Below, piece after piece: positions 1 to 7,156 of a DNA stretch of 7,156 nucleotides. A program made the translations under genes and the position numbers. The stretch spans positions 1 to 7,156 of the forward strand of contig NYZA01000175.1 of NCBI GenBank assembly GCA_002686955.1, given 5' to 3'. Numbering within the stretch: the first letter of the stretch is position 1; each line of letters starts with the position of its first letter. The DNA is from Gemmatimonadota bacterium. GTDB taxonomy: Bacteria > GCA-2686955. The notes beneath the pieces were generated by a model. That model saw only the letters and a list, made by a program, of their open reading frames with translations. It searched no databases and was not told the DNA's origin.

Positions 1-7
1 AGGAACT

Positions 8-85
8 CCAAGGGGTCTTTTCGAGGACCGAGAACGTCCCGTTATGACCAATCCCCGCGGGAACTCAACCTAGAGCGACCGTAGG
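8..85 (+). repeat. Left copy of 78-bp inverted repeat at window edge
   Basis: Bases 8-85 are the exact reverse complement of 7079-7156. I aligned them base by base; identity stops at 86, where the left has g and the other copy implies c. Read outward, both copies begin CCTACGGTCGCTCTAGG. The copy contains the palindrome CCCGCGGG (54-61). All three frames reading inward from base 1 are open until TGA 45-47, TAG 71-73 or TAG 82-84, compatible with the tail of an unseen gene ending near an element boundary. A gene that looks intact up to this boundary (GMC oxidoreductase) loses its family sequence here. Likely the end of a multicopy mobile element; an assembly-graph overlap at a repeat is the main alternative. 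I do not recognise the element family. Confidence 0.85.
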
Positions 86-209
86 GATCGTAGTCGCGGC
101 CGGCCTCGAGCATCAAGACTCTCGTGCCCGCTTTGGCGAGGGTGTAGGCGGCCATCGCGCCAGCTGCGCCGGAGCCGATGACGACTACGTCGTATCGATT
201 TTCTGCCAT
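42..209 (-). CDS. GMC-type FAD oxidoreductase, N-terminal fragment cut by the repeat
   Basis: The first 42 residues are the FAD-binding Rossmann start of a glucose-methanol-choline family oxidoreductase. A beta strand DVVVIGSG leads into G12-x-G14-x-x-G17, then a helix and the second strand RVLMLEAG with the acidic residue E35 that usually binds the ribose of ADP. Family members run to about 500-570 residues and oxidise alcohols or sterols with FAD. Native sequence ends at codon 42 (base ~86), exactly where the terminal repeat begins. The following 13 residues (YGRSRLSSRGDWS) are encoded by the repeat and end at TAA 42-44. The start at 209 is chosen because the Rossmann strand begins at residue 7 and a GGGGCAGG stretch lies just upstream; an in-frame ATG at 317 would add 36 unrelated residues. 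As it stands the product would lack the substrate domain and be inactive. Confidence 0.75.
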   Translation of the reverse strand: MAENRYDVVVIGSGAAGAMAAYTLAKAGTRVLMLEAGRDYDPYGRSRLSSRGDWS

Positions 210-220
210 CGACCTGCCCC

Positions 221-319
221 CAGTGATCGAGCCACGTCCTGTCGCATCTTCCCGGCCTCCGATCTGTGCTCGGGCCGGCGGATGCCATCCGGTTACCATA
301 GGCCGTCGCTCGATCACTG
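221..319 (-). promoter_or_regulatory. Potential three-helix structured leader ahead of GMC gene
   Basis: A perfect 12-bp inverted repeat, CAGTGATCGAGC (221-232) and GCTCGATCACTG (308-319), encloses two smaller ones. These are CCGGCC 252-257 with GGCCGG 273-278, and CGGATG 279-284 with CATCCG 286-291, which abut each other. As RNA on the minus strand this would fold into a closing helix with two hairpins. Its 3' strand ends 11 bases before the GMC ATG, right beside the ribosome-binding region. It could be a cis-regulatory leader, a bipartite protein-binding site or a small repeat element. I do not recognise a known riboswitch class, and transcription is not shown. Confidence 0.4.
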
Positions 320-693
320 CCGCAACGTCAGGGAGATCGACCTCTGCTTCGAGGAGCTTGCGGGGGCTGGGTCAGCCGAAGTGGAAGCTCGGTCGGTCCT
401 TGCGTATCAGTGCGCGGTAGTCGAGGGAGCGCAGCCGGGGGACCGTTGACGAGGGTGACCGCCCCCTGACGGACGATCGATATGGGAGGAGCGACCCGCT
501 CCGAAAGATCCAGGGCCACCCGCGAACGACTCCGCCGGCAAATCGTAGTCGGGCAATCGCTCCGACGCGCGCGCTAGCGGCCCGCGGCTCCGAGCTGGCA
601 CCGGCCCTCTCGACAAGCAGTGCCGCGTAGTGTGCCGTCATCGCTGCCCCGACGAGGAGCACAACTCGTCGAGAACGCTGCGCCCGAGGGAGT

Positions 694-720
694 GATCCCC
701 AGGTGCGGTGCCTAGGGATC
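694..720. terminator. Hairpin beside the tRNA-like fragment
   Basis: GATCCC (694-699) pairs with GGGATC (715-720). One c/a mismatch follows, then AGG (701-703) pairs with CCT (711-713), leaving a 7-base loop. On the minus strand it lies about 30 bases beyond the 3' end of the tRNA-like fragment, where a tRNA terminator would sit. No run of T follows on either strand, so an intrinsic terminator is only a possibility. Confidence 0.25.
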
Positions 721-751
721 GCAGTGGCAGCGACACAACCCCCGACGCTCC

Positions 752-797
752 CACGCCGGGAGGGATTCGAACCGCGACCCTCAGCCTCGAAGCCTGA
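752..797 (-). pseudogene. Degenerate 3' half of a tRNA-Arg(UCG)-like gene
   Basis: Read on the minus strand, TCAGG-CTTCGAG-GCTGA (797-781) is an anticodon arm with four of five pairs. Its 7-base loop has U33, anticodon UCG and A37. It is followed by a GGGTC variable region and a T-arm core, GGTTCGAATCC. This closely follows the usual bacterial tRNA-Arg layout. The T stem is only two clear pairs, apparently short by one base, and no D arm or 5' acceptor strand is found upstream on the minus strand (plus 798-860). It is therefore a fragment, not a working tRNA. Three-prime tRNA halves are typical remnants of tyrosine-recombinase attachment sites, but no integrase gene is visible, so an att remnant is an inference. 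Confidence 0.45.
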
Positions 798-1044
798 ACG
801 GAGAGTGAGGAAATCCAAACAGTTACGCGATTCCAAGCGGGCGTCGTGTCGACGGATGGAGATTTCGGACGCTTCCCGGAAGTTCGCTGGGAAACCCCGG
901 TCGGAAGTTAGGCGGCTAGAACCGAAAGAGTGCGAACCCAGAACGCGCGATCGAGAGATGTGAGTCGAGGCCTCACCTTCTCCTGAGCGTAGGTCGAAAG
1001 CTGCTGGGGCAGCGCAAGCTCGACGATCGCCTGAAGTACGTAAC

Positions 1045-2259
1045 TCAATCCTTGTGATAGAACTTGTCTCGCTCCCGTGATGCGTACACCACAGGGATGT
1101 CCTCGTCGGCTATCGGCGCCATCCGCTGCTTACGCGCGAGCGCGGCCTCGATATAGGGCGCAAGTTCTGCAGCCTTGTTCGCTTCGCGCTCTTCGCGGCC
1201 CTCGACAAACTCGGGCATCACGTCACGCGCGAACAACTCCAGGCTCTCACAGATGTGCTTGTGACGGGTCCTCCCCCCCTGCTGAAGAAAGACGATTTGA
1301 TCCACGCCAACCTCTTGAAACTCACGGATGAAGGCGGCGAACTCCTCGGGAGTGCCGATGCCGGGAGCCGGAACGGTGGGCATCTCCCGGTCCGCCTTGA
1401 GAGCCTCAAACTCCTCCCACAACGTGCTGCGTCCGGGCTTGATGTCGTTGGCGACCAATGCGTTGATCGCATAGCGGAAGAAGGCGAATCCATCTACGCC
1501 GCGGCGGCGGCCTTCCTCGGCATCCTCGTGCAGAGAGAAACCGGCCACGACCGCGATGTTGGCATTCACCGAGTGCCCGAGAGGTACACAGTCTTCCGAT
1601 TTGATGATGTCGTAGTAGATATCCGCCCAGGTCTTGGCCTCTTCCTGGTCCACGAAAGAAAATGCCAGCACCCCGAGGCCATTGCGTGCCGCCACCTTGA
1701 TGGTCTTGAGGTTGGTACAGGCCATCCACATCGGGGGATGCGGTTTCTGCAGGGGCTTCGGCAGCACATTGCGGCACGGCATGGAAAAACCCTTTCCCTC
1801 GTGCCCGGGGTATGGGGTCATGACCATCATGTTGGCGATCTGCTCCGCTGATTCCAGCGACAGTTCACGTTTTTCCTTCGCCTTGATTCCGAAGCCGTGT
1901 AGCTCCAAGCGCGACGCGCCCTCTCCGATGCCGAAATCGACACGCCCATCGGAGATCAGGTCGAGCATGGCCACCGTCTCGGCTGTGCGTGCGGGGTGGT
2001 TGTAGTTGGGGATGACCTGACGGATGCCGAACCCGACTCGGATGTTCTCGGTCTTTCCAGCCAGCGCGGTGAGGAAGATATCTGAAGCCGAACAATGAGA
2101 ATACTCATCCAGAAAATGATGCTCCGCCGCCCAGGCATGATCGATGCCGAGACGATCGGCCAGTTGTACCTGTTCGAGGGCTTCCTGAACTAGTCGATGC
2201 TCAGCACTTTCGTCCCAGGGTTTGGGTAGTTGAAGCTCGTAGAACAATCCGAAACGCAT
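1045..2259 (-). CDS. LLM-class flavin-dependent oxidoreductase
   Basis: A 404-residue luciferase-like monooxygenase with a TIM-barrel fold. Such enzymes use reduced FMN or F420 and typically oxygenate aldehydes, ketones, terpenoid or sulfur compounds in the cytosol. Visible family marks are the N-terminal strand MRFGLFYELQLP, the WAAEHHF segment at residues 43-49, DLISDGRVDFGIGEG at 100-114, KPHPPMWMA near 172-180, and the closing GTPEEFAAFIREFQEVGVDQ at 302-321. The C-terminal ~45 residues form a charged extension beyond the barrel. The start at 2259 is chosen because GGAGAAGG sits just upstream and the family N terminus begins there. The frame stays open to 2712, but that part is antisense to SDR 1. 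It is divergent from SDR 1 across a region with a near-palindromic operator candidate (2334-2349) and a 24-bp palindrome (2283-2306). The exact substrate and the flavin (FMN or F420) cannot be told. Confidence 0.93.
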   Translation of the reverse strand: MRFGLFYELQLPKPWDESAEHRLVQEALEQVQLADRLGIDHAWAAEHHFLDEYSHCSASDIFLTALAGKTENIRVGFGIRQVIPNYNHPARTAETVAMLDLISDGRVDFGIGEGASRLELHGFGIKAKEKRELSLESAEQIANMMVMTPYPGHEGKGFSMPCRNVLPKPLQKPHPPMWMACTNLKTIKVAARNGLGVLAFSFVDQEEAKTWADIYYDIIKSEDCVPLGHSVNANIAVVAGFSLHEDAEEGRRRGVDGFAFFRYAINALVANDIKPGRSTLWEEFEALKADREMPTVPAPGIGTPEEFAAFIREFQEVGVDQIVFLQQGGRTRHKHICESLELFARDVMPEFVEGREEREANKAAELAPYIEAALARKQRMAPIADEDIPVVYASRERDKFYHKD

Positions 2260-2282
2260 ATCCTTCTCCCGTCTTTCCCAAG

Positions 2283-2306
2283 GGCTGGCTGCGATCGCAG
2301 ACAGCC
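2283..2306 (-). promoter_or_regulatory. 24-bp near-perfect palindrome in the LLM leader
   Basis: Eleven of twelve base pairs match about a centre at 2294/2295; only g2288/a2301 fails. The core is CTGCGATCGCAG and the outer arms are GGCTG and CAGCC. It ends 23 bases upstream of the LLM start codon. In DNA it could be a dimer-binding operator. In RNA it would form a hairpin with a GATC loop just ahead of the ribosome-binding site. Confidence 0.5.
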
Positions 2307-2333
2307 GGAAATCGCCTACGCTAGATGCCAATG

Positions 2334-2349
2334 AATTAGTATCATAGTT
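2334..2349. promoter_or_regulatory. Candidate operator, site 1, in LLM/SDR divergent region
   Basis: The plus strand reads AATTAGTATCATAGTT. It matches the reverse complement of 6089-6104 at 15 of 16 bases. The arms (AATTA/TAGTT, four of five complementary) are separated by six bases, like a dimeric repressor site. A -10-like TATGAT on the minus strand lies inside it, and TACAAT (2361-2366) lies just downstream toward the SDR gene. Bound protein would therefore block both promoters. A TetR-type regulator is a guess; none is encoded in the window. Confidence 0.55.
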
Positions 2350-2410
2350 AGGATTCAGTCTACAATCGACTCGAGTACGAATCTGCAGCTCACTTCCGGG
2401 GGGTTCACCG

Positions 2411-3253
2411 TTGAAGGACATTGCCGGCAAGGTGGCGTTCGTCACTGGCGGCGCCAGTGGAATCGGCCTCGCGATGGCGCGGTCGCTATTGGCCGCAGGG
2501 ATGAAGGTCGCGATCACCGACATCGAACAAGCCGCACTCGATCGAGTGAAAGGAGGATTCGCCAGCTCCAACGCCGAAGTGATCCACCTGAAGCTCGACG
2601 TGACCGACCGCGATGCGATGGAGCAGGCCGCCCGGGAGACCGAAGCCGCCTTCGGCAAGGTCCATGTGGTCTGCAACAACGCAGGTGTATCCGTCAGCGG
2701 GCGAGTCGACAAGATGAGCTACAAGGACTGGGACTGGGTGATGGGCGTGAATCTGGCCGGTGTCATCAACGGCGTGCAGACCTTTGCAAGTCGCATCAAG
2801 GCGCACGGTGAAGGCGGCCACTTTGTGAACACCGCGTCGATGGCAGGGCACATGCCGATTCCGGGCGGCAGTATCTATACCACCAGCAAATTCGCTGTCG
2901 TCGGCATGTCTGAAGTGATGCGCACGGACCTGGCCCGATACAACATCGGCGTGTCGGTGCTGTGTCCGGGCGGCGTAGTCACCAACGTGGGGAAGTCGGG
3001 CCGCAATCGCCCGGAGAATCTGACCCGCGAAACCGACAACACGCGGCTGAATCTGGGAAAATTGTCCGAGACCGTCATGGACGACATGCTCGAGGCGGAA
3101 GTCATCGGCGAAATGGTGCTGGCGGCGATTCTGGCGGACGACCTCTACATCTTCAGTCACCCCCAACTGAAAAAGGTCGTCGATGCGCGCAACGCCGCGA
3201 TTGACGACTCGTTCGCGCGCTGGTCGCAATATCGTGAGGACCACGGCGTTTGA
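2411..3253 (+). CDS. Short-chain dehydrogenase/reductase (SDR 1)
   Basis: A 280-residue classical SDR that would oxidise or reduce a hydroxyl/keto group with NAD(P)(H) in the cytosol. The cofactor motif TGGASGIG is at residues 12-19, D38 follows the second strand (a hint of NAD preference), and NNAG is at 89-92. The full catalytic tetrad is visible: N114, S143, Y156 and K160 in the order N-S-YxxxK. The C-terminal ~80 residues are longer than in minimal SDRs and end in a helical region, DDSFARWSQYREDHG. The start is TTG at 2411, preceded by GGGGGG seven bases upstream; the first ATG (2474) would delete the Rossmann strand. It is the first gene of a same-strand run with the patatin-like gene (118-bp gap) and SDR 2. 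A hydroxysteroid or hydroxyacyl dehydrogenase role is possible but not shown. Confidence 0.93.
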   Translation: MKDIAGKVAFVTGGASGIGLAMARSLLAAGMKVAITDIEQAALDRVKGGFASSNAEVIHLKLDVTDRDAMEQAARETEAAFGKVHVVCNNAGVSVSGRVDKMSYKDWDWVMGVNLAGVINGVQTFASRIKAHGEGGHFVNTASMAGHMPIPGGSIYTTSKFAVVGMSEVMRTDLARYNIGVSVLCPGGVVTNVGKSGRNRPENLTRETDNTRLNLGKLSETVMDDMLEAEVIGEMVLAAILADDLYIFSHPQLKKVVDARNAAIDDSFARWSQYREDHGV

Positions 3254-3273
3254 TGAAACAACCTATGAGTGAA

Positions 3274-3327
3274 GGTCGACAACGAGCTGCGGGCAACGCC
3301 CAACGCCCGAAGAGCTGGGCTTCGACC
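3274..3327 (+). other. Potential rod-like RNA hairpin between SDR 1 and patatin-like gene
   Basis: Three nested complementary blocks occur in order: GGTCGA (3274-3279) with TCGACC (3322-3327), AGCT (3285-3288) with AGCT (3313-3316), and CGGGC (3290-3294) with GCCCG (3305-3309). The loop is ten bases. There is no T-tract, so it looks less like a terminator than like an intercistronic processing or stabilising structure. It may be chance in GC-rich DNA. Confidence 0.25.
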
Positions 3328-3371
3328 CTGCGGGCCGCACTCGGCACCGCGCGCAATGGAGGAATTGTGTG

Positions 3372-4229
3372 ATGGCGGGTCTTGGACTCTTGTTGGGAGG
3401 CGGTGGATCGGTAGGAATCGCCTGGGAGAACGGCGTGCTTGCCGGATTGGTCGATGCGATCGGCTTCGAGCCGGCGAAGTCGCGCATCATCATCGGAACC
3501 TCCGCGGGCTCTTCCGTTGGAGCCGACATGGCGCTTGGCAGGGATCCTCACGATGCACTCGAGCTTGACCGAGATCCAAGCAACCCTCGCCGCAAGCTCC
3601 CCACGCCTGACCTCGAAAAGGGAGCCTTCGCCGATATCATCGCATTGATGCTCTCCTCCAAGGGCGGAGACTCCGAAACCGTGGCGAAGATCGCCAAGCT
3701 CGCAATAGAAGCGGACACCGCGCTTTCTGAGGATCAATTCGTCGACATGTTCAAGAAGACGGTAGGCACCGACGAGTGGCCGGACGTCGATTTTCGCCCT
3801 ACCTCTGCGACGTGCTCCACCGGCAAGCCCAAGTTCTGGACAGCCGACGATGGCATACCGCTGTCTCGAGCCGTGGCTTCATCGTGCGCCATACCCGGCT
3901 ATTTCCCAACCGTCTCCCACGCGGGAGAACACTATATGGACGGCTCTCGCGGTCCCTTGTACCACGCAGCAATCACAAAGGATCTCGCCCTCGATGCGGC
4001 GCTCTTCATCGGACCGAAGGTCGCCATCGGGCGCGTAGCCCAGATGACCATTGAGGACATGGAGGCCATCGCAGACACAGGCGTACGCACCCACACAATC
4101 CTGGGTAGCGAGCGCCTCGACGCACTCAGACTGAATCTGATGGACTACTCGAAACGCCCGGATGCCTTCGAGTGTGGCATGGCGGACGGCGCCGACCACG
4201 CGGCAAAGGTGAAGGAATTACTGGGCTGA
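3372..4229 (+). CDS. Patatin-like acyl hydrolase / phospholipase
   Basis: A 285-residue patatin-family lipid acyl hydrolase using a Ser-Asp dyad. The oxyanion-hole glycine run LGGGGSVG is at residues 8-15. The nucleophile elbow G42-T-S44-A-G46 follows a hydrophobic strand (RIIIGTSAGS), and the partner aspartate is D190 in YMDGSRG. No signal peptide or membrane segment is seen, so it is probably cytosolic. It would cleave an ester, thioester or phospholipid acyl group. ATG at 3372 is chosen because GGAGG (3358-3362) is nine bases upstream; GTG at 3369 would add one residue. It lies in a plus-strand run between two SDRs, with an intergenic hairpin upstream. Related genes are often found in CoA-linked catabolic clusters, where they may act as hydrolases of substrate esters or acyl-CoAs; that role is inferred. 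Confidence 0.92.
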   Translation: MAGLGLLLGGGGSVGIAWENGVLAGLVDAIGFEPAKSRIIIGTSAGSSVGADMALGRDPHDALELDRDPSNPRRKLPTPDLEKGAFADIIALMLSSKGGDSETVAKIAKLAIEADTALSEDQFVDMFKKTVGTDEWPDVDFRPTSATCSTGKPKFWTADDGIPLSRAVASSCAIPGYFPTVSHAGEHYMDGSRGPLYHAAITKDLALDAALFIGPKVAIGRVAQMTIEDMEAIADTGVRTHTILGSERLDALRLNLMDYSKRPDAFECGMADGADHAAKVKELLG

Positions 4230-4241
4230 GGCTCGATCTCC

Positions 4242-4304
4242 GCACGGGCAACCCATCGGGTTGATGCACTGCTCGAGGTTGCACCAGCCCGCGCTCGCCC
4301 GTGC
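4242..4304 (+). other. Possible folded leader upstream of SDR 2
   Basis: GCACGGGC (4242-4249) is the exact complement of GCCCGTGC (4297-4304). Directly next to the left arm is a tight hairpin, AACCC-atc-GGGTT (4250-4262), that could stack on it. The SDR 2 ribosome-binding site lies some 20 bases downstream of the right arm. No T-tract follows. It may be a structured mRNA leader or chance. Confidence 0.25.
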
Positions 4305-4336
4305 ACTTGGGCGGTAGTCGCTCTCGGGAGAAGACG

Positions 4337-5185
4337 ATGTATGACTTGACCGGCAAGGTGGCGATCATCACCGGCGGCGCGAGCGGAATGGGTCGCGCGA
4401 CCTCCCTGCTCTTTGCGCAGGCGGGGGCAAATGTCGTGGTGGCGGATCTCAACGACGCCGGCGGTGAAGAAGTTGCGAATCTCGCGTCCGAGAGCAGAAA
4501 CGAAGCCGTGTTTCAGCACACCGATGTGGCCGTAGAAACGGATATCGAGGCGGTCGTCACGCGTGCGACCGAAACATTCGGTCGCCTGGATATCATGTTC
4601 AACAACGCCGGAATCGGTGGCGCGGTCGGACCGCTCGAAGACGTATCGGTCGAAGACTGGGATCGCACCCAGGCGGTCTGTCTGCGTGGCGTATTCCTCG
4701 GCATGAAGTACGCCGCCGCACCGATGCGCACGGCCGGTGGCGGGTCGATCATCTCGACATCATCGATCGGCGGTCTCGAAGGATCCACAGGCATGTTTTC
4801 CTACGCCGCGGCCAAAGCGGGGGTCGTGCACCTAACGCGTTGCGCGGCCCTCGAGTTCGCCCGCGATCGCATCCGGGTGAATTGCATCGCACCGGGCGGC
4901 ATTTCGACACCGATTCTCTTCGGTGTGGGCGGAAACGACAAAGAGGAAGTCGAATCAGGACTCATGAGGTTCCAGCCCTATCCACACGTGGGGCAGCCGG
5001 AAGACATTGCAAATGCGGCGCTATTCCTGGCGAGTGACGCAGCAACGTTCATCACCGGCCACACGCTGGTCGTCGATGGCGGCGCGACCGCTGGACCCAA
5101 GTCATCTGCGCCGAAGGCCGGCCAGAATCGCAGGTCCCGATTCACAGGCCCGTCGTTCGAGAGAGCTGGTGGGAAGCTCGAGTAG
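4337..5185 (+). CDS. Short-chain dehydrogenase/reductase (SDR 2), tetrad Asn replaced by Cys
   Basis: A 282-residue classical SDR. TGGASGMG is at residues 12-19, D37 ends the second strand, TDV is at 62-64 and NNAG at 89-92. S143 and Y156-x-x-x-K160 form the catalytic core, followed by IAPGGISTP and the family closing motif LVVDGGAT at 244-251. The position that is normally Asn in WDxxxxVNLxGVF is C115 here (codon TGT), in an otherwise typical context. After the family's usual end about 30 residues continue (PKSSAPKAGQ... to KLE), rich in Lys, Arg, Ser and Gly. The start ATG is preceded by GGGAG; an upstream in-frame start at 4301 would add 12 residues and lacks this site. It follows the patatin-like gene by 107 bp and is probably co-transcribed. 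It would oxidise an alcohol or hydroxyacyl intermediate; cyclic-alcohol dehydrogenases are close in style. Confidence 0.93.
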   Translation: MYDLTGKVAIITGGASGMGRATSLLFAQAGANVVVADLNDAGGEEVANLASESRNEAVFQHTDVAVETDIEAVVTRATETFGRLDIMFNNAGIGGAVGPLEDVSVEDWDRTQAVCLRGVFLGMKYAAAPMRTAGGGSIISTSSIGGLEGSTGMFSYAAAKAGVVHLTRCAALEFARDRIRVNCIAPGGISTPILFGVGGNDKEEVESGLMRFQPYPHVGQPEDIANAALFLASDAATFITGHTLVVDGGATAGPKSSAPKAGQNRRSRFTGPSFERAGGKLE

Positions 5186-5202
5186 GCTTCCTACCTTCGA
5201 GC
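5176..5202. terminator. Hairpin across the SDR 2/ECH convergent junction
   Basis: GCTCGAGTAGG (5176-5186) pairs with CCTAC-ct-TCGAGC (5190-5202), giving eleven pairs with a two-base bulge and a three-base loop. It covers the SDR 2 stop codon and sits in the 27-bp gap to the convergent ECH gene, so it could stop transcription from both sides. No clear T-tract is present, hence moderate confidence. Confidence 0.45.
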
Positions 5203-5212
5203 CGCCCTTCCC

Positions 5213-6055
5213 TTACCTGGACTTGTACACAGGCTCGCGCTTCTCGCGGCGAGCGCTCAATCCCTCCACCAGGTCTTCGCTGATCATGCAATCGGAAGCG
5301 CTGGCAGCCTCGAACTCCAGGTCGTCGATGAGCCCGCGATTGAGCGCGTGGTTGCAGCTGCGTTTGCAGTGCTGTACGGCCAGCGGACCTTGCGCGGCGA
5401 TGCGGTCGGCCAGTTCGCGTGCGGCACTCATGAGCTCTTCGGGCGTATCATGGAGGGCCTGCACCAGACCGATGTCGAGGGCCTCCTCGGCGGGAATCCG
5501 CGCGGCGGTGTAGAGCAGGCGTTTGGCGTGCCCGGGGCCGATCGCCTTCATCAGGCGGACTGTGCCGCCCATGTCGACGGGGGCCCCCAGCTCGACCTCC
5601 GGCAAGCCGAGCGTCGCCCCGCGCACCGCGAGACGAATGTCACAGCAGAGCGCCAACTCCAGCCCCGCGCCCAGACAGTGACCGTTGATGGCGGCAATGG
5701 CCGGAATTCGCATGTTCTCGAAGGCCGTGAAGTGGCTCGAAGTGCGCTGGATCAGCTGCGCCGTCTGGCGATTCTTCTGCGCCGCACTTCTCTTCACACG
5801 CTTGCCGGAACCCGACCCGGGCTTGCCAGGCGCGAGATCGATGCCTGCGCTGAAGACCCGGTCACCGGTGCCCGTGAGAATGGCGACACGGGCACTTTCG
5901 TTCGCCTCGAGTTCTTCGGCAAGCTGGCTCATGATCGGCCACATATCCAGCGTCAGTGTATTGAGATGGTCGGGCCGATTGAGGGTCAATAAGGCCCGAT
6001 GCTCGGTCTCCATTTCAAGCAGAATGCGCGATTCCGTGTCGGTACCCGTACTCAT
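5213..6055 (-). CDS. Enoyl-CoA hydratase/isomerase (crotonase fold)
   Basis: A 280-residue crotonase-family enzyme, expected to hydrate or isomerise an enoyl-CoA in the cytosol. The first oxyanion-hole segment FSAGIDL is at residues 68-74 and the second, GHCLGAG, at 125-131. Both acidic residues used by true hydratases are present: E133 in GLELALCCD and E153 in GLPEVELG. The tail REKREPVYKS resembles the usual xEKRxPxF/Y ending. Between the two oxyanion segments lies an unusually basic Gly/Ser/Lys/Arg stretch (residues 76-97). ATG at 6055 is chosen with GGGAG nine bases upstream; the family strand begins near residue 10. The gene is divergent from the acyl-CoA dehydrogenase across a candidate operator and convergent with SDR 2. 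Its pairing with an ACAD suggests consecutive beta-oxidation-type steps. The substrate chain is unknown. Confidence 0.94.
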   Translation of the reverse strand: MSTGTDTESRILLEMETEHRALLTLNRPDHLNTLTLDMWPIMSQLAEELEANESARVAILTGTGDRVFSAGIDLAPGKPGSGSGKRVKRSAAQKNRQTAQLIQRTSSHFTAFENMRIPAIAAINGHCLGAGLELALCCDIRLAVRGATLGLPEVELGAPVDMGGTVRLMKAIGPGHAKRLLYTAARIPAEEALDIGLVQALHDTPEELMSAARELADRIAAQGPLAVQHCKRSCNHALNRGLIDDLEFEAASASDCMISEDLVEGLSARREKREPVYKSR

Positions 6056-6088
6056 GAGCTGGCTCTCCCTACGTCGAGACCGATATAC

Positions 6089-6104
6089 AACTATGATACT
6101 AGTT
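6089..6104. promoter_or_regulatory. Candidate operator, site 2, in ECH/ACAD divergent region
   Basis: AACTATGATACTAGTT has perfect 5-bp inverted arms (AACTA/TAGTT) around six bases. It matches site 1 at 15 of 16 positions in the opposite orientation. A -10-like TATGAT (6092-6097, plus) and TATCAT on the minus strand are inside it. It lies 34 bases from the ECH start and 87 from the ACAD start, a fitting place for a repressor controlling both. Confidence 0.6.
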
Positions 6105-6115
6105 AGTCACCAAAG

Positions 6116-6149
6116 GGGGCAAGCCATAGACGAAAGGCGGCTCTGCCCC
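6116..6149 (+). promoter_or_regulatory. Strong hairpin in the ACAD leader
   Basis: GGGGCAAGCC (6116-6125) pairs with GGCT-c-TGCCCC (6139-6149), giving ten pairs with one bulged base and a 13-base loop. It lies between operator site 2 and the ACAD ribosome-binding site (AGGAG 6181-6185), so it would be in the 5' leader. No T-tract follows. It may affect mRNA stability or translation. Confidence 0.35.
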
Positions 6150-6190
6150 GCCAGCCGTCCTGATTGCAGCCCGACCCACGAGGAGACCAG

Positions 6191-7099
6191 GTGAACAACC
6201 GCGAAACATTCCGCGCAGAGACCCGAGCCTGGCTCGATGAGAACTGCCCGCCCGAGATGCGCAGACCGGGCGATGTAGCCTGGGGCGGGCGCACGGCCCG
6301 CTTTTCGAGCGACGACCAGAAGCTCTGGATGGAGCGAATGGCCAATAAAGGCTGGACCGTTCCCACATGGCCCCGGGACTGCGGCGGAGCGGGGCTCTCC
6401 AAGGAAGAAGCCGCGGTCCTCGCGCAAGAAATGCGCGAGCTCGGCTGTCGAACGCCACTCAATTCCTTTGGGATCATGATGCTCGGGCCCGTGGTACTCC
6501 AGTACGGCACCGAGGAGCAGAAGCGGAAGTTCCTGCCGCCGATCGCCCGCGGCGAAATCCGCTGGTGTCAGGGCTACAGCGAGCCCGGAGCGGGTTCAGA
6601 TCTCGCCAACGTGCAGTGCCGGGCGGTCCGAGAGGGCGACGACTACGTCGTAAACGGTCAGAAGATCTGGACCTCCGAGGCGCACCTCTCGGATTGGATC
6701 TTCTGCCTGGTGCGGACCAATACACAGGTCGCGAAGCACGATGGAATCAGCTTCTTGCTCATCGACATGGCCGACCCGGGAGTCGAGGCGACGCCGACCC
6801 CCTTGATCAGTGGCGAGTCCATCTTCTGTCAGACGTTCTTCGATGATGTGCGTGTTCCCGTGGAGAATCGGATCGGTGAGGAGAACGCGGGCTGGACCAT
6901 TGCGAAAAGACTTCTCGAGCACGAGCGCAACTCGATGTCGACCGGGGCCGGGAGTAGGTCGGCGAACGCGAAGCGCAAGCGCAGAACATTGATCGATGAC
7001 GCGCGCACGGCCCTCGACACACCCGAGGGCAAGCTGCCCGACGCAGACTTACGCGACCGCATCGCACGCGTCGAGCCGCCTACGGTCGCTCTAGGTTGA
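6191..7099 (+). CDS. Acyl-CoA dehydrogenase, C-terminus cut by the repeat
   Basis: An FAD-dependent enzyme of the acyl-CoA dehydrogenase family that would introduce a double bond next to the CoA thioester. The N-terminal helical domain (residues ~1-120) ends at YGTEEQKRKFLPPIARGE. The flavin/substrate signature CQGYSEPGAGSDLA is at 126-139, followed by the middle beta domain (GQKIWTSEAHLSDWIFCLVRT, then FFDDVRVP). The C-terminal helical domain has only begun (LLEHERNS... LRDRIARVE) when native sequence stops at ~295 residues (base 7078), against about 380-400 in the family. The last seven residues, PPTVALG, and the TGA come from the terminal repeat. The missing part normally holds the catalytic base and dimer contacts, so this form should be inactive. 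GTG at 6191 is chosen with AGGAG five bases upstream. It is divergent from the enoyl-CoA hydratase gene. Confidence 0.88.
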   Translation: MNNRETFRAETRAWLDENCPPEMRRPGDVAWGGRTARFSSDDQKLWMERMANKGWTVPTWPRDCGGAGLSKEEAAVLAQEMRELGCRTPLNSFGIMMLGPVVLQYGTEEQKRKFLPPIARGEIRWCQGYSEPGAGSDLANVQCRAVREGDDYVVNGQKIWTSEAHLSDWIFCLVRTNTQVAKHDGISFLLIDMADPGVEATPTPLISGESIFCQTFFDDVRVPVENRIGEENAGWTIAKRLLEHERNSMSTGAGSRSANAKRKRRTLIDDARTALDTPEGKLPDADLRDRIARVEPPTVALG

Positions 7100-7156
7100 G
7101 TTCCCGCGGGGATTGGTCATAACGGGACGTTCTCGGTCCTCGAAAAGACCCCTTGG
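7079..7156 (-). repeat. Right copy of 78-bp inverted repeat at window edge
   Basis: Exact reverse complement of 8-85, running to the last base of the window. Read outward it begins CCTACGGTCGCTCTAGG directly after ACAD codon GAG-CCG. The copies reveal the same end of one sequence inserted in opposite orientation at two unrelated sites, or an element whose two ends are alike. The repeat may continue beyond the window: the left side shows seven further bases that have no partner here. Confidence 0.85.

Follow-up and report, generated by a model that had tools for sequence, protein, structure and literature searches.

A short dispersed repeat, present as two inverted copies, probably forms the perfect terminal inverted repeat of a Gemmatimonadota contig

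Our analysis indicates, with a probability of roughly 80%, that the contig studied here runs at its ends into a short dispersed repeat, hereafter element D, whose two inverted copies truncate a gene for an FAD oxidoreductase and a gene for an acyl-CoA dehydrogenase. The window, i.e. the whole stretch of DNA that was analysed, comprises 7156 bp and is the entire contig C175 (G000:C175:1-7156) of the short-read draft genome of an uncultured bacterium, consisting of 270 contigs and 4.28 Mb with a completeness of 84.5%. Therefore, the terminal inverted repeat represents the two ends of C175 and does not enclose a segment within a larger known sequence. A sequence-only reading had described an exact 78-bp inverted repeat at positions 8-85 and 7079-7156, and this was borne out since both arms of 78 nt are 100% complementary. 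An exact match of 78 bp within 7 kb is far beyond chance. The features of the contig are as follows:

1..85, minus strand: left copy of element D, the dispersed repeat of about 91 bp; truncated on the outside by the contig end, inner boundary at base 85
86..209, minus strand: N-terminal part, some 41 codons, of a GMC-like FAD-dependent oxidoreductase, interrupted at the boundary of the repeat
1045..2259, minus strand: luciferase-like (LLM) monooxygenase, intact and internal (PF00296)
2411..3253, plus strand: short-chain dehydrogenase (PF00106)
3369..4229, plus strand: patatin-like phospholipase (PF01734)
4337..5185, plus strand: short-chain dehydrogenase (PF13561)
5213..6055, minus strand: enoyl-CoA hydratase/isomerase (PF00378)
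6191..7078, plus strand: acyl-CoA dehydrogenase, interrupted at the boundary of the repeat; retains the N-terminal and middle domains and lacks the C-terminal domain
7079..7156, plus strand: right copy of element D; truncated on the outside by the contig end, inner boundary at base 7079

Read outward from the interior, both ends of C175 enter identical sequence, beginning with CCTACGGTCGCTCTAGGTTGAGTTCCCGCGGGGATTGGTCATAACGGGACGTTCTCGGTCCTCGAAAAGACCCCTTGG, at the same base. The left arm belongs to an 85-bp copy (1-85) that reaches 7 bases (1-7) farther outward, and the right copy is 7 bases shorter as the contig terminates there. The inner boundary, located directly in front of CCTACGGTCGCTCTAGG, is sharp and identical in all three long copies of D found in the genome, and in each of them the reading frame of the adjoining gene is lost at this position. 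On C175 the frames of the FAD oxidoreductase and the acyl-CoA dehydrogenase each read a few codons into D before a stop is reached, so that the chimeric tail PPTVALG of the acyl-CoA dehydrogenase derives from the repeat. The match of the latter protein to a solved relative of 400 residues ends at residue 253. The missing 3' halves were sought by means of Pfam C-terminal domains, which yielded five matches for GMC and six for acyl-CoA dehydrogenase; in no case was the match clearly a truncated half located at a contig end beside D.

Three further observations concern the interior of C175. A palindromic 16-mer, AACTATGATACTARTT, is present at 2334-2349 and 6089-6104, that is in both divergent intergenic regions of the contig, and has no other occurrence in 1.78 Mb of the genome with up to 3 mismatches allowed. 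It is probably an operator common to the catabolic genes, and our guess would be a TetR-like one; C175 itself contains no regulator gene to pair with it. The starts of the two short-chain dehydrogenase genes (2411-3253 and 4337-5185) are 79% identical over 66 bp, which probably reflects homology of the nucleotide-binding motif. A tRNA remnant suspected by eye near 750-800 found no support on checking.

A search of the same genome for the repeat, as proposed in the sequence-only reading, did reveal a further copy at G000:C157:6825-6915 with 99% identity, and no transposase was found beside it. All 85 bases of the left copy are matched there with one mismatch. The contig C157 is 6930 bp long and carries this copy at its right end, behind a broken gene for a DUF4956 protein. 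Genome-wide, three left ends of D were located (C175 left, C175 right and C157 right), all of them at contig termini, and the junction to CCTACGG is the same at each, behind a different interrupted gene. The right copy on C157 runs through the full 91 bp to GGAGTTCCTATCCGC, after which come 15 bases that are not part of it. At its left end, C157 begins exactly with GGAGTTCCTATCCGC, the last 15 bases of D, directly fused to a dehydrogenase gene, and in a genome-wide pattern search this 15-mer matched exactly only at these two places. Because of the junctions on C157 and a right end resembling that of a second repeat family, E, we infer that D is a complete element of about 91 bp, CCTACGGTCGCTC...GGAGTTCCTATCCGC, with boundaries at CCTACGG and TATCCGC that are 91 bp apart in the one copy seen with both ends, on C157. 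Joining the flanks of this copy without D yields an open frame (...SQHAVAELSLP), which aligns loosely to a paralogue on C97 (...NCSQLELARF). The rejoined frame would be a plausible continuation of the gene and is, with five residues involved, supportive but not proof. The right flank of the C157 copy matched only itself when searched elsewhere.

The ends of contigs in this assembly are informative in this respect. In a sample of 137 contigs (1.78 Mb, 42% of the genome), in which a repeat was defined as sequence found again elsewhere within the 1.78 Mb, 80 of the 251 contig ends fall into dispersed repeats, compared with 1.8% of the internal sequence, which is about 18 times more often. None of the retrieved contigs was shorter than about 6 kb, which fits with short repeat contigs being absent from the bin. 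The exact sharing between converging contig ends ranges from 25 to 99 bp over 90 end pairs with no dominant value, and the depth to which contigs enter repeats varies widely. Therefore, contigs of this genome commonly stop inside short dispersed repeats, and the 78-bp match is within the normal range. The plain alternative offered by the sequence-only reading, a contig stopping at a multicopy repeat, thus held in its main part: the stretch is a whole contig, the third copy of D also lies at a contig end, and contig ends are enriched in repeats. Its second part, a sharing of about one assembly k-mer, did not hold. The runs from the inner boundary to the contig end measure 78, 85 and 106 bp (the last including 15 bp past the element), the copies show one substitution, and given the sharing of 25-99 bp no fixed k-mer length explains the match.

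Based on the observed copies of D, their common inner boundary, the broken genes and the tendency of contigs to end in repeats, we propose the following course. Each end of C175 would enter one copy of D, with the two orientations being opposite by happenstance, and the assembler, unable to choose the continuation of each copy, would have broken off there, within D. Most likely, D is an interspersed element, small and non-autonomous, whose insertion into coding genes truncated them. It may have moved by transposition, aided by a transposase whose gene lies elsewhere, and the copies at either end of C175 would represent independent insertions.

With regard to its nature, D is non-coding and short, as its 91 bp in the sole two-ended copy fall into the MITE range of 50-500 bp, and it occurs in multiple dispersed copies at unrelated sites, since its four known ends adjoin four different genes. 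Its short frames matched no family in Pfam or NCBIfam, and a tblastn search of its peptide against plasmids gave nothing meaningful apart from one weak match (E 4) to an unannotated stretch of an Embleya plasmid. No transposase gene was found within the 91 bp or beside the copies of D, one of which is seen whole. D has no terminal inverted repeats: the best end-to-end inverted match is 4 bp, a score equalled or beaten by 971 of 1000 shuffles, whereas MITEs of the same genome that bear such repeats score 21-24 in the same test. The C157 copy with two flanks shows no flank repeat beyond CCGC, which is present in every copy and hence is the element's own. Folding of D was no better than that of shuffled sequences (z-scores +1.36 and -0.78) and Rfam returned no match, so that the reading as a hairpin or structured RNA was rejected. 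D was absent from the plasmids and phages searched and from 59 other genomes, among them the sole one compared that is of the same family. Neither a 36-mer from D nor a 20-mer from E had an exact match in genome contigs, and a 31-mer from D likewise had none in viral contigs. An HUH (Y1) transposase was considered as a partner of D and rejected, as the only such gene lies on contig C59, where no copy of D or E was found. Overall, D behaves most like a small non-autonomous dispersed element. It cannot be filed as a MITE because it fails one defining test, the terminal inverted repeats.

Family E, of about 100 bp, is commoner than D in the same genome, and the last 29 bases of D resemble those of E and end at the same base. 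The sequence GGAGTGCCTATCCGC was located by genome-wide pattern search on C16, C62, C145, C188, C194 and C229 and, with two mismatches, on C8; after TATCCGC a different sequence follows at each of the seven located copies. Copies of E ending in GGAGTGCCTATCCGC include those on C62 (L127) and C145 (L114). On C62 the copy of E abuts a second repeat module, AGAGCTGCGCTCAGTTAGTTCAGATTTGCGCGGTTTACGGTGATTGGTGACA, which is present without E on C171 (L129) and C237 (L130). Short interspersed repeats are abundant in general (e.g. L036:6594-6758, L097:2146-2483 and L042:2575-2757), with 327 loci in 1.78 Mb, of which one chained group accounts for 179. At least three repeat families of 164-183 bp have clear terminal inverted repeats of 16-27 bp, and two of them are usually flanked by CTAG-like sites. 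Unlike D, such repeats are classic miniature elements. A bolder idea, which we regard as doubtful, is that D and E represent a novel type of small mobile DNA from a phylum that has scarcely been sampled, which would have no terminal inverted repeats but a conserved right end (CGRAAA...TTGGAGTKCCTATCCGC) with differing bodies and left ends, and would be moved by a yet-unnamed enzyme.

The placement of D in the genome is uneven, which counts against our main interpretation. All four known ends lie on two contigs, C175 and C157, each of which has D at both ends; by our own arithmetic this would happen by chance with a probability of about 1e-5 given 540 contig ends, or about 0.006 if only the three long ends are counted. 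The uneven scatter suggests that D is clustered in one region or replicon; it may reflect such clustering or an origin of both contigs from a mis-binned genome. The latter reading, in which C175 and C157 belong to another organism where D is common, is compatible with our main interpretation and is unlikely, though less so than the other alternatives discussed below. It would explain why all known ends of D in the bin are confined to these two contigs, and C157 is the second most atypical of the 137 contigs by tetranucleotides. However, C175 itself is typical of the genome (rank 67 of 137, GC within one s.d.), and D has a right end like that of E, a family with copies scattered across further contigs in the bin. 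Between 917 and 5810, C157 carries genes of a surface-polysaccharide type, namely for an asparagine synthetase, an AMP-binding enzyme, DUF362 and DUF4956 proteins and a dehydrogenase.

Somewhat less probable still is that the 78-85 bp are the terminus of a full-length IS of 1-2 kb, collapsed into an unbinned short contig, with each contig end lying in a different IS copy. The convergence of three contig ends on one sequence with a sharp inner boundary would agree with this. Moreover, a repeat contig below about 6 kb would be absent from this bin. On the inward strand there is also an open frame whose end lies close to the boundary (...ERPVMTNPRGNST, then a stop), and the sole substitution between copies is synonymous there. 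In contrast, the C157 copy returns to non-repeat sequence 91 bp from the boundary, the other end of C157 shows the same TATCCGC junction fused to a gene, and the database searches described above recovered neither a protein family for the short frame nor the element in plasmids, phages or genome contigs.

A pure assembly artefact, in which one and the same repeat k-mer was erroneously joined to two contig ends whose genes are otherwise intact, is very unlikely. End errors are known from short-read assemblers and all three long copies of D are located at contig ends. Nevertheless, these copies differ in length and in one base, copies of the related family E that share the TATCCGC end are found within contigs, and C157 reads through D into a plausible continuation of its gene. 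That two inverted copies of D mobilise the enclosed catabolic genes as a composite transposon is hardly credible: despite the inverted geometry around five metabolic genes and the existence of TIME-COMPs, which are bounded by inversely oriented miniature elements derived from Tn3 (PMC13367494), both copies cut genes reading outward from within the segment, so that on its inner side the unit would end in gene fragments, terminal inverted repeats are absent from D, the outer flanks of both copies lie beyond the contig ends, the tetranucleotide composition of the segment is typical of the genome, and D also adjoins unrelated genes on C157. The inverted IS copies around a catabolic block and the long terminal repeats suggested by the sequence-only reading found no footing: a transposase at the repeats and terminal inverted repeats were both lacking, searches of plasmids, phages and other genomes gave no match, and D adjoins unrelated genes on C157. 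All three readings, IS, composite transposon and long terminal repeats, are unsupported for this repeat and improbable.

Element D, which we favour as a small dispersed repeat, can be compared with several known systems. Gene-disrupting MITEs have been described in Ca. Thiomargarita nelsonii (PMC4853749). Like these, D is short, non-coding and dispersed and interrupts metabolic genes in a genome loaded with short repeats; unlike these, it has no terminal inverted repeats, no target duplication was seen, and no parent IS was found. TIME-COMPs resemble the present arrangement in that genes are enclosed by a pair of inversely oriented copies of a short element, but again D is devoid of terminal inverted repeats and there is no sign that the segment moved as a unit. 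Named classes of short interspersed repeats also include REP/BIME and RPE-type repeats (PMC10969869). D shares with them a length of about 100 bp or less, dispersal and the non-coding character. It is not a hairpin palindrome, as seen from its fold z-scores. RPEs are in-frame, whereas D introduces stops.

The repeat is most probably not the boundary of a mobile gene block, and for the most part the finding is an ordinary one. It comes down to a small repeat family, so far unnamed, in a genome that is rich in repeats and belongs to a poorly sampled phylum. The chief lesson is one of caution: where a metagenomic contig carries perfect inverted repeats at both ends, these can mimic a transposon boundary although the assembly merely stopped there. 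If D is real and complete, it would be a small repeat without a name that interrupts catabolic genes, in a phylum of which hardly any members have been sequenced and in a genome heavily loaded with short repeats.
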